Assembly (NCBI RefSeq): GCF_000970205.1
Contig: NZ_CP009512.1
Coordinates: forward strand, 3,348,001 to 3,412,000
From: Methanosarcina mazei S-6
GTDB lineage: Archaea > Halobacteriota > Methanosarcinia > Methanosarcinales > Methanosarcinaceae
Length of the DNA stretch: 64,000 nucleotides
Direction of reading: 5' to 3'
Shown here: positions 48,314 to 51,927 of the stretch, one piece after another
Layout of the letters: the number at the start of each line of letters is the position of its first letter
How positions within the stretch are numbered: position 1 is the first letter of the stretch
Program-made: the position numbers and the translations under genes
The notes under the pieces: generated by a model
The model's database searches: none
The model's input: only the letters and a program-made list of their open reading frames with translations
Told to the model about the DNA's origin: nothing

Positions 48314-48473
48314 ATAAATTCACTCTCAGAGTTTTTAATTCGGTGACAAAAAGAAGGTTTAGATTTAACTTTATAATACATTATGTAAAGTGAGCACCGG
48401 ATAGTAGTTAAAGTTTATCGGAGAAACAGAAACCTGATATAAGTGAGTATCATAAACCTTTATGGGGTACTCT

Positions 48474-48929
48474 ATGACAGAAAATTGCCTCTTTTGCAAG
48501 ATAATATCAGGTGAGATTCCTTCAAAGAAGGTATATGAAGATGATGCTGTATGTGCATTTCTTGACATCTACCCGGCAAGTGAAGGACACACTCTTATAG
48601 CTCCCAAAAAGCATTTTAATAGTTTTACAGATATGGGCGCAGAAGATACAGCCAGACTTTTTGAAGCTGCAAGAAAAATTACAGCTGCGGTTGAAAAAGC
48701 ATTTTCAGCGGAAGGGTCGAATATTGGTATAAACAACGGGGAAGTAGCAGGGCAGGAAGTCCCCCATGTGCATGTACATGTCATTCCCAGAAAAAAGGGA
48801 GATGGAGGAAGAGGAATAAAGTCAATAGTATGGACCGAACCTGACAGGACCAATCTGAACGAAGTTGCGGAAAAGATCAGGAAAAAACTGAGGGAAAACG
48901 AAAGTCTTCAGGTAGATGCACCTGTATAA
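48474..48929 (+). CDS. HIT family nucleotide hydrolase
   Basis: The 151-residue protein has the histidine triad HVHVHVIPR (about residue 99), an N-terminal CLFCKI zinc-binding-like pair and SEGHTLIAPKKH. HIT proteins cleave nucleotide conjugates such as dinucleoside polyphosphates or adenylylated compounds. The ATG at 48474 is taken, since GGGGT lies before it; the ATG at 48462 overlaps that site. It precedes the tusA-like gene by 145 bases and may be separate from the sulfur genes. Confidence 0.9.
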   Translation: MTENCLFCKIISGEIPSKKVYEDDAVCAFLDIYPASEGHTLIAPKKHFNSFTDMGAEDTARLFEAARKITAAVEKAFSAEGSNIGINNGEVAGQEVPHVHVHVIPRKKGDGGRGIKSIVWTEPDRTNLNEVAEKIRKKLRENESLQVDAPV

Positions 48930-49074: not shown

Positions 49075-49302
49075 GTGGCAGAACTGGAAGTAGATGTTAG
49101 AGGGCAGACCTGCCCGGTACCTCTTGTAGAGTGCAGAAAAGCGTTTAAAAAAGCCTCTCCAGGAGACCTTGTAATTGTAAAGGGTACGCATCCGGCATCA
49201 AAAAAAGAAATTCCCATGGCATGTGAGGCTCTGGGGCTCACCGTGCTGGAGATTGAAGACAAAAAAGAAGGAAAAGAATGGGAAATAAAAATCCGGAGGT
49301 AA
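49075..49302 (+). CDS. TusA-like sulfur carrier protein
   Basis: The 75-residue protein has the TusA/SirA fold with the active Cys in GQTCPVPLVECRKA (about residue 13). TusA-like proteins accept a persulfide from a desulfurase and pass it to tRNA thiolation, molybdenum cofactor or sulfur metabolism. The start is GTG with GGGGGG six bases upstream; the open frame before it has no start. It is followed after 19 bases by a DsrE-like gene and 0.75 kb later by NifS-like and IscU-like genes, so a sulfur-transfer role is likely. Confidence 0.88.
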   Translation: MAELEVDVRGQTCPVPLVECRKAFKKASPGDLVIVKGTHPASKKEIPMACEALGLTVLEIEDKKEGKEWEIKIRR

Positions 49303-49321
49303 GGCCGGGAAAGGAGTGGAG

Positions 49322-49741
49322 ATGGGGGAAAAGGCGGTAATCGTCCTTCACAGCGGGGATATGGATAAGGTATACAGCGCACTTATAATTGCAAACGGAG
49401 CCCTTGCGATGGGTATGGAAGCTTCGATATACTTTACCTTCTGGGGGCTCATGAGGCTTAAAAAAGGGGAACTTGAAAAAGGTCCGCTTTCCAGAATGAA
49501 CATGATGGGTGCTGGAAAGCAGATGATCAAACAGAGAATGGATAAAGCCCATGTTGCATCGCTGGAAAAGCTGATGAATGACTTCAAGGAGCTTGGGGGA
49601 AAAATCATAGCCTGCGAAATGACTATGGAGATCATGGGCATAGAAAAGGAAGAAATTCAAACGGAATGGGTGGATGAATGGGGAGCTGTTGGTTCGTACA
49701 TCCATGAAGCAAGGGATGCAACCATAACTCTCTTTATCTGA
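49322..49741 (+). CDS. DsrE/DsrF-like sulfur-transfer protein
   Basis: The 139-residue protein has the DsrE2-like pattern: VIVLHSGDMDKVYSALIIANG at the start, FWGLMRLKKG in the middle and ACEMTMEIMGI (about residue 98) with the conserved Cys expected to carry sulfur, then GAVGSYIHEARDA. Such proteins work with TusA in sulfur oxidation or trafficking in other organisms. GGAGTGGAG precedes the ATG at 49322. Pairing with TusA supports a sulfur relay role. Confidence 0.85.
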   Translation: MGEKAVIVLHSGDMDKVYSALIIANGALAMGMEASIYFTFWGLMRLKKGELEKGPLSRMNMMGAGKQMIKQRMDKAHVASLEKLMNDFKELGGKIIACEMTMEIMGIEKEEIQTEWVDEWGAVGSYIHEARDATITLFI

Positions 49742-50046
49742 CTTTGAGAGTTGAAAATAAGTTTCAGCAACAGTAAGATTATTCAGGCTTTCATTTTTAC
49801 CCCGGGCCTTCATCGCAATTTATCGGGCCAGATCCACTTATCCGGCTGCAAATAGATCTTCCAGGCAGGAATTAAGCTGGAAGTGCTCAAAATCTGGCTG
49901 AAACCATTCTGAATTTTTATTAAAGTATTGATTTATGGGATATAACACAGCTTTACTGAGGAGATGAAGTATTAATTAAAAACAGAAACTGAGTCACGGG
50001 AATTAAATTTTATATGATCTGAGGAGGGGGAAAAATATTTGAAAAT
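49742..50046. other. Spacer between the DsrE-like and NifS-like genes
   Basis: No gene is seen. TTTTATATGATCTGAGGAGGGGG (50009 onward) combines a possible TATA element and a strong ribosome-binding site; a separate promoter for the nifS-like gene is possible. Confidence 0.4.
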
Positions 50047-51201
50047 ATGATTTATCTAGACAATTCTGCATGCACAAGGCTGGACGAGAGAGTGCTTGAA
50101 GCAATGAAGCCCTATTTTTTTGATACTTATGCAGTAGCGACATCCGAATTTGGCTATTCCATGGGAATTGACGCAAAAGAAGGGCTTGAAAACTCCAGGG
50201 AAATCATAGCCTCAAGGCTTGGTGCGGACTCCGAAGAAATAATATTCACGTCGGGAGATACGGAATCAAGCAACATGGCATTGAAAGGGACAGCCTGGGC
50301 ACTTAAGGAGAAAAAAGGCAGGCATATTATTGTTCTGCAGATAGAGGATTTTCCGGTGTTGAATACGGCAAAATCCCTCCAGAAACAGGGTTTTGATGTC
50401 ACATTTCTGAATGTTGACGGGGAAGGGTTTGCAGACCTTGAAGGGCTCAGAAAAGCAATTACAAAAGAAACTGTTCTTGTCTCAATCCAGTACGCCAACC
50501 AGGAGATAGGGACGGTCCAGGACCTGAAGGCAATCTCTGAGATCTGCAAAGAAAAAGATGTCCTTCTGCATACCGATGCCACACACAGTTTTACCCGGCT
50601 TCCCCTGAATGTAAAAGAACTGCCTGTTGACCTGGTTACATTGTCAGCCCACACGATTCACGGTCCCAGGGGAATAGGTGCTCTCTACATCAGAAAAGGC
50701 ACTCCAGTAAGCAAATTCATGGATGGCGGCTTTCAGGAGTTCAATTTGAGGGCAGGGGTTGAAAATATTCCCGGAGCCGCAGGTTTTGCAACAGCAGTAG
50801 AACTTGTAACCGAAGATGAGACCAGGCAGCTCGAAGCCATGAGGAACAGGGTAATTGAGAGAGCCCTCTCTGAAATTCCGGATGTCACTCTTAACGGGAG
50901 CCGGGAAAAACGCCTGCCTCAGAATGCAAACCTGACTTTCCATTATGTGGAAGGAGAATCCATAACCCTGCATATGGACATGAGAGGGTTTGCGGTGAGC
51001 ACAGGTTCAGCCTGTTTCAGCCGTTCCCTTGAAGCCAGCCATGTTATAAGGGGGATAGGAGGGGACCATGAAAGAGCTCATGGTTCGGTTCGCTTCACTT
51101 TCGGACGTTACAACCGCATGGAAGATGCGGACGCTGCAGTTGATGCCATGAGTGAGGTTGTGGCAAGGCTGAGGGAAATTAGCCCGCTTGCAAGAAAATA
51201 A
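50047..51201 (+). CDS. NifS/IscS-like protein lacking the PLP lysine
   Basis: The 384-residue protein has the fold and length of class V cysteine desulfurases (YLDNSACTRLDERVLEAM at the start). Key residues differ: the Lys that binds PLP in SAHK-x-x-GPKG is Thr203 (SAHTIHGPRG, ACG at 50653-50655); the substrate His of EHxAV is Asp101 (IEDFPVL); DAAQS reads DATHS. The loop Cys that carries sulfur is kept as Cys323 (GSACFSRS). It is thus unlikely to be a normal PLP-dependent desulfurase. From memory, an Archaeoglobus IscS also lacks this Lys and acts with IscU. It is followed by an iscU-like gene after 66 bases, supporting a scaffold or Fe-S role. Confidence 0.88.
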   Translation: MIYLDNSACTRLDERVLEAMKPYFFDTYAVATSEFGYSMGIDAKEGLENSREIIASRLGADSEEIIFTSGDTESSNMALKGTAWALKEKKGRHIIVLQIEDFPVLNTAKSLQKQGFDVTFLNVDGEGFADLEGLRKAITKETVLVSIQYANQEIGTVQDLKAISEICKEKDVLLHTDATHSFTRLPLNVKELPVDLVTLSAHTIHGPRGIGALYIRKGTPVSKFMDGGFQEFNLRAGVENIPGAAGFATAVELVTEDETRQLEAMRNRVIERALSEIPDVTLNGSREKRLPQNANLTFHYVEGESITLHMDMRGFAVSTGSACFSRSLEASHVIRGIGGDHERAHGSVRFTFGRYNRMEDADAAVDAMSEVVARLREISPLARK

Positions 51202-51267: not shown

Positions 51268-51927
51268 ATGAAAATCGAAAAGAAAAGTGAGATGAAGTTT
51301 CCTTATAGTGAAAAAGTTCTTGAGCATTTCAGGAACCCGCATAATGTGGGGAAGATAGAGAACCCTGACGGAAAAGGCCTGGAAGGAAGCCCTGCATGCG
51401 GGGATATGGTTGCAGTATACATTAAGGTCGACCCCAGGACAAAGGTCATTGAGGATATAAAATTCGAATCTTACGGATGTGCATCCAACATTGCCACTGG
51501 GTCCGTAATCACAGACCTTGCACGTGGAAAGACCCTGGATGAAGCTAAAAAAATAACCTGGAAACAGGCTTCAGAAGAGCTTGATGGCCTTCCTCCGATA
51601 AAAGCCCACTGTTCCGTGCTTGCTGTTGAGGGCCTGCGTGCCGCAATCCGGGACTACGAAGAAAAACACGGGCTCGTCACAGAGAAAGAACCGACGACGG
51701 AAGAGGTTGTCCAGCAGAGGCTCAAACACGTTATGAACCCTCTGACAGGTCTTGATGTTGTTCGCACCAACCTTATACTTAAAACGAGTGTTGAAGCAGG
51801 AGTTATCAGGGTGGTTGTTGACCTGCCCGCAGACCACCAGTTTGCTCCGGCAATAAAAGAGGATATAATTGAAAAGCTCGGGGCTCTCTGGGATGTGGAA
51901 AGAGTAGATGTGGTGTTTACAGCCTGA
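51268..51927 (+). CDS. IscU-like Fe-S scaffold fused to a DUF59/MIP18 domain
   Basis: Residues about 10-135 match IscU: SEKVLEHFRNPHNVG, then the three cluster cysteines in SPACGD (about 44), YGCASNIA (about 71) and AHCSVLA (about 113). Residues about 150-219 match the DUF59/MIP18 domain of Fe-S assembly proteins (NPLTGLDVVRTNLI, then VVVDLPADHQFAP). The scaffold would hold new clusters and the added domain could pass them on. GGGGAGAG lies before the ATG. It belongs with the NifS-like gene just upstream. Fusion of the two modules in one chain is unusual. Confidence 0.87.
   Translation: MKIEKKSEMKFPYSEKVLEHFRNPHNVGKIENPDGKGLEGSPACGDMVAVYIKVDPRTKVIEDIKFESYGCASNIATGSVITDLARGKTLDEAKKITWKQASEELDGLPPIKAHCSVLAVEGLRAAIRDYEEKHGLVTEKEPTTEEVVQQRLKHVMNPLTGLDVVRTNLILKTSVEAGVIRVVVDLPADHQFAPAIKEDIIEKLGALWDVERVDVVFTA

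Follow-up and report, generated by a model that had tools for sequence, protein, structure and literature searches.

What does an IscS homologue do once it has lost the lysine for pyridoxal phosphate (PLP) and kept its loop cysteine? The question is raised by a gene, herein iscS*, of Methanosarcina mazei S-6, located in a window (i.e., the whole stretch of DNA analysed) of 64,000 nucleotides within a 4.14-Mb genome assembled as a single contig. The core observation, a lysine-less IscS, is already in print and is not new: judged by sequence, iscS* is orthologous to the gene for Methanosarcina acetivorans IscS1 (MA0808), which was published in 2020 as lacking the PLP-binding residues, including the essential lysine (PMC7585200). 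There, IscS1 was likened to Archaeoglobus fulgidus IscS, four clustered genes were given as of unknown function, and the protein formed inclusion bodies and went unassayed. Our analysis concerns what surrounds this observation, namely the remainder of the pocket, the spread of the subfamily, and the genes inherited with it (Table 1).

Table 1. Coordinates of the iscS* locus within the window
Feature	Coordinates	Strand	Description
HIT-type protein gene (presumed)	48462..48929	+	upstream of tusA
tusA	49075..49302	+	TusA-family sulfur carrier, PF01206 (1.1e-19); probable GTG start
dsrE2	49316..49741	+	DsrE/DsrF-like (DrsE_2) sulfur carrier, PF13686 (3.1e-36); ATG at 49322 as alternative start
iscS* (IscS1 orthologue)	50047..51201	+	IscS/NifS fold, lysine-less; D101, Q152, H180, T203; loop Cys323 kept
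codon 203 (ACG, Thr)	50653..50655	+	PLP-lysine position, from alignment with E. coli IscS
codon 323 (TGT, Cys)	51013..51015	+	mobile loop STGSACFS, from alignment with E. coli IscS
iscU1	51268..51927	+	IscU/NifU_N scaffold with C-terminal DUF59 (FeS_assembly_P); PF01592, PF01883

Altered pocket residues in an IscS fold

The iscS* reading frame encodes 384 amino acids from an ATG start with no internal stops, and its product matches the aminotransferase class-V fold (PF00266) at E=2.8e-69. Alignment to E. coli IscS, read together with the codons, bears out the residue changes proposed in an earlier note on this DNA: Thr203 stands at the PLP lysine K206, Asp101 (GAT) at the acid-base histidine H104, and His180 (CAC) at Q183, giving DATHS where E. 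coli has DATQS, while the loop cysteine C328 is retained as C323. That first reading overlooked the exchange of N155 for Q152 (CAG) and the loss of the GNP motif (N35 to V30, P36 to A31). Retained from E. coli are D180 (= D177), S203, H205, and T76; Thr72, Asp177, Ser200, and His202 of IscS* align with PLP-contacting residues and are mostly kept. The earlier note had named another active-site lysine as what would speak against its reading; the alignment revealed no shifted lysine in the homologous column, and an invariant lysine lies elsewhere, i.e., Lys223, fixed in the IscS* subfamily, not found in other IscS proteins, and equivalent to A228 of E. coli. Lys223 might leave some room for PLP chemistry. 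Lack of the PLP lysine does not mean lack of PLP, which may still bind; a published depiction of A. fulgidus structure 4EB5 includes the cofactor (PMC9769115).

The AlphaFold model of IscS* (pLDDT 93, pTM 0.92) has the cysteine loop, residues 322-328, as its only part with pLDDT below 50, and matches structures of human Nfs1 and of the IscS proteins of E. coli and A. fulgidus at Z-scores of 52-55, with an rmsd of 1.2 for the canonical enzymes. Among the structures matched is 3lvj, a solved structure in which E. coli IscS binds TusA. IscS* falls under all NCBIfam equivalog cut-offs listed, including those of TIGR03402 (430.8 vs 530.75) and TIGR02006 (374 vs 643.2).

A cross-domain subfamily under purifying selection

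Relatives of IscS* at 62-93% identity occur in Methanosarcinaceae, in one Methanothrix, and in bacterial metagenome-assembled genomes (MAGs) of Chloroflexota, Myxococcota/Deltaproteobacteria, Nitrospirota, WOR-3, Clostridia/Bacillota, Spirochaetota, and Actinomycetota. The subfamily, defined by a D-Q-H-T signature, forms one clade (support 100) comprising Methanosarcinaceae and at least 7 bacterial phyla. Across 40 non-redundant relatives, D101, Q152, and H180 never vary and T203 hardly does. Nearly all relatives carry the four residues, though position 203 is Leu or Met in a few Chloroflexota and Ser in one Eubacteriaceae; loop Cys323 is present in 111/111 sequences covering the loop. The window gene and its Methanosarcina orthologues diverge with dN/dS values of 0.04-0.06, indicative of strong purifying selection, and IscU1, TusA, and DsrE2 are likewise constrained. 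The earlier note's view that a sequencing error is unlikely is thereby upheld; conservation and dN/dS rule out both an error and a pseudogene. A decaying or misread gene, in whose favour one frameshifted Methanosarcina MAG copy (L037/L093) could be cited, is scarcely credible against a dN/dS of ~0.05, nearly all frames intact, and the same residues in two domains of life. In that MAG, Methanosarcina sp. ERenArc_MAG2, frame breaks interrupt both iscS* and IscU1, and DsrE2 is shortened; because several genes are affected, the breaks may reflect assembly error.

Positions fixed in the IscS* clade and different elsewhere include R11, V30, A31, F102, Q148, C167, H205, K223, H309, and R343, among others, a pattern in the alignments that suggests a retooled pocket as opposed to decay. 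The same pattern might favour an active enzyme with changed chemistry, in which PLP or another phosphate compound would be bound without a Schiff base or via Lys223, with D101, Q152, and H180 as catalytic residues: the pocket replacements are fixed and not the product of random drift, equivalents of the PLP phosphate cup (T72, S200, H202) are mostly kept, and K223, R11, F102, H205, and H309 are invariant in 40/40 non-redundant members. We nevertheless consider such an enzyme improbable: these residues may just as well have a structural role in the pocket, the IscS of A. fulgidus shows no activity, and we know of no PLP enzyme of the IscS fold that works with Thr at the lysine site.

In the tree, the A. 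fulgidus type and the D-Q-H-T type are each one supported clade. Joining both lysine-less types as one clade was not rejected (p-AU 0.576); separate losses of the lysine in each type are not supported. Within the A. fulgidus type, one branch (L185, L186, L191, L195) carries Asp at Asn155 and Asn at Asp180 (HDNAND/HDNANE), a swap in the site for the PLP pyridine nitrogen. Elsewhere, the IscS of Candidatus Endomicrobium macrotermitis (L106, 6001-7149), an organism named after a termite, has P, S, S, and V at N155, Q183, H205, and K206, and its gene adjoins iscU without TusA or DsrE.

Sulfur carriers beside lysine-less IscS

In the products of the genes flanking iscS*, cysteines and cluster ligands are conserved: the IscU1 ligands C44, D46, C71, H114, and C115 are conserved in 106 sequences, C14 and P17 of the TusA CPxP motif are invariant, and DsrE2 has one invariant cysteine, Cys100. 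The dsrE2 product scores 63.7 against a cut-off of 210 for the NCBIfam SulfCarrDsrE2 equivalog. Bacterial loci retain all four genes, mostly in the order iscS*-iscU-tusA-dsrE2 in Chloroflexota; the only further recurrent partner detected there was an ABC ATPase, SufC-like by eye, in 6/28 loci and at differing positions. The gene upstream of tusA, which by its sequence we take to encode a HIT-type protein, is a Methanosarcina neighbour that was not detected beside the cassette elsewhere among the loci compared, and it probably lies outside the system. Between dsrE2 and iscS* the window has a gap of ~305 bp (49741-50047), much shorter in most other lineages; because of this gap, the two genes may belong to separate transcripts in Methanosarcina, with a second promoter or regulatory region.

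Linkage was counted over loci made non-redundant at 90% and having 1.3 kb or more of flanking sequence on both sides. Loci of the D-Q-H type (DQHx, n=33) had TusA in 30, DsrE in 27, and IscU in 33 instances, and those of the A. fulgidus type (n=30) in 28, 18, and 30, respectively; for the lysine type (n=27) the counts were 0, 0, and 20. These associations represent one or two evolutionary origins, retained over long periods, and an independent-pairs test had only 1-2 pairs, so the linkage is not statistically independent evidence and Fisher values computed on it overstate its weight.

A further IscS-type protein (at least one) is present in 18/21 IscS*-bearing genomes; all 20 such copies read have the lysine, and neither TusA nor DsrE was found near any of these 20. 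Together with the two lysine-type IscS proteins that M. acetivorans holds besides IscS1 (PMC7585200), such copies would suit a regulator or decoy, whereby IscS* would bind IscU or TusA in competition with the cell's own true desulfurases IscS2/IscS3. A dedicated IscU with all its ligands and an invariant loop cysteine would be superfluous for a decoy, a role to which we accord very little probability.

Co-inheritance was assessed within Halobacteriota, where IscS* is found in 37/295 genomes and IscU-DUF59 and DsrE2 each in 36/290 (one genome, G029, belongs to the 295-genome IscS* sample only and not to the 290). Across the 290, the three genome sets are the same except for G222, which has IscS* without DsrE2, and G176, which has DsrE2 and the A. 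fulgidus type in place of IscS*. All three genes are missing from one Methanosarcina (G024) and from two further genera (g2, g4). In genus g5, Methanococcoides-like by its neighbouring loci, DsrE2 has moved off the locus in six genomes, and tusA-dsrE2 are still paired elsewhere in 3/3 genomes read. G176 also holds several DsrE-family frames together with TusA (L248, 3874-5637, minus strand), apart from its lysine-less IscS locus.

At its IscS1 locus (L184), the A. fulgidus genome itself carries tusA, dsrE, iscS, and iscU as consecutive genes, as assigned by a Pfam run on relatives. Its other iscS copy encodes a product 100% identical to the 4eb5 sequence and is preceded by a DsrE-like reading frame without a full-length start (L205, 3176-3526, plus strand), this isc2 locus lying downstream of FeoB-looking frames. 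A second DsrE2-like gene occurs near the isc1 locus (L184, 2187-2585, minus strand). By the look of it, the isc and DsrE-like genes of L184 and L205 stem from a duplication.

As far as the literature shows, the D-Q-H-T signature defining a cross-domain subfamily under purifying selection is new, as are the cassette in which TusA and DsrE2 accompany an IscU-DUF59 fusion whose ligands are intact, the linkage of TusA to lysine-less loci, and the co-inheritance of IscS*, IscU-DUF59, and DsrE2. No paper tying lysine-less IscS to TusA or DsrE was found among CC-licensed PMC papers, a scope that makes for weak evidence of novelty.

A putative sulfur relay and its relation to known systems

We put at about an even chance the proposal that tusA-dsrE2-iscS*-iscU(DUF59) constitutes an Fe-S assembly module whose sulfur does not come from cysteine via PLP chemistry. 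The module would draw sulfane sulfur from pools of polysulfide, thiosulfate, or persulfide, or receive it from another desulfurase; this sulfur would be carried on DsrE2 Cys100 and/or TusA Cys14, handed to loop Cys323 of IscS*, and passed on to the IscU cluster site (Cys44, Asp46, Cys71, His114, Cys115). IscS* would be a dimer that offers a docking platform and relays persulfide, and possibly also provides an extra cluster ligand, like its Archaeoglobus relative. We infer the persulfidation of Cys323, the lack of desulfurase activity in IscS*, and the direction of sulfur flow, the last because the cysteine chemistry is lost and carriers are present.

Several considerations favour this relay: (i) the equivalents of Lys, His104, and Gln183 are replaced by fixed residues and the loop Cys is invariant; (ii) the IscU ligands, the TusA CPxP cysteine, and DsrE2 Cys100 are invariant; (iii) TusA lies beside most loci of the lysine-less types and beside none of the lysine type (0/27; 0/20); (iv) the A. 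fulgidus IscS1 locus is itself tusA-dsrE-iscS-iscU; and (v) the distributions of IscS*, IscU-DUF59, and DsrE2 over the 290 genomes nearly coincide, with Methanococcoides keeping its tusA-dsrE2 pair elsewhere. Counting against it are the flow in E. coli, where sulfur passes from IscS to TusA, i.e., in reverse, as well as the one or two origins of the linkage, the ~305 bp gap, the absence of DsrE2 from G222, and Lys223. Also in its favour (vi), E. coli IscS binds TusA, DsrE3A of Metallosphaera hands a thiosulfate group to TusA (PMC4175335), and A. fulgidus IscS, according to work cited in PMC7585200, has no desulfurase activity yet contributes a cysteine that ligates the [2Fe-2S] cluster of IscU.

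This last property equally underlies the main rival of the relay, in which IscS* would be a dead assembly partner like A. fulgidus IscS, with Cys323 as a temporary cluster ligand and free sulfide as the source, and with TusA and DsrE2 serving another step or delivering directly to IscU. Published structure and assays of the A. fulgidus protein speak for it (as cited in PMC9769115 and PMC7585200), as do the 42-43% identity and Z of ~52 between IscS* and 4eb5/4hvk, and the fact that M. maripaludis uses sulfide and M. acetivorans is able to (PMC10500019). It would not explain why TusA and DsrE are almost always co-inherited, and the fixed D-Q-H-T pocket is unlike the A. fulgidus residues; we hold it to be rather unlikely. 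Both readings predict no desulfurase activity and differ on the need for TusA and DsrE2.

The earlier note's suggestion, in which the protein serves its IscU-like partner as a scaffold, as donor of a cluster ligand, or as a carrier of persulfide, was of the right class, fitting A. fulgidus IscS and what PMC7585200 suggests for M. acetivorans IscS1; it missed that prior publication, the TusA/DsrE2 link, and the breadth of the subfamily. If the relay is true, an IscS fold passes sulfur on without catalysis by PLP. A generalisation we advance with slightly less than even confidence is that Fe-S assembly without cysteine desulfuration spans both domains, with TusA/DsrE loading a non-catalytic IscS that relays to IscU-DUF59, and that the same logic explains the inactive A. 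fulgidus IscS. A possible reason for that inactivity lies in the TusA-DsrE carriers that A. fulgidus seems to encode within the same gene cluster. In M. acetivorans, separate deletions have shown SufBC and IscS2-IscU2 each to be dispensable for Fe-S cluster formation (PMC10500019, PMC7585200); a direct candidate for the main cluster-building route there is the third IscSU module, which comes with sulfur carriers of its own.

Compared with known systems, IscS* has the fold, loop Cys, and IscU partner of canonical group I IscS/NifS proteins and lacks their catalytic Lys, His, and Gln. Closest is M. acetivorans IscS1-IscU1 (MA0808-MA0807), with the same STGSACFS loop, a 24 kDa IscU1, and matching ligand spacing; its cluster has four further genes, in keeping with the Methanosarcina-wide cluster of the window gene, and the main text of PMC7585200 makes no mention of TusA, DsrE, or the D-Q-H-T signature. 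The A. fulgidus IscS-IscU pair (PDB 4eb5, 4eb7, 4hvk; D199K mutant 4r5f) is likewise lysine-less, with a Cys loop and an adjacent IscU. There, however, the catalytic His is kept, the positions of Gln183 and Lys206 hold Ala and Asp, respectively (HNDANDC vs DQDHHTC for IscS*), and IscU is without the DUF59 domain that the IscS* partner has. Lastly, the DsrE3A-DsrE2B-TusA systems of sulfur oxidisers also place TusA and DsrE-family carriers side by side; in those organisms they are tied to Hdr-like complexes and sulfur oxidation, whereas here they are tied to IscS*-IscU in mostly anaerobic lineages.
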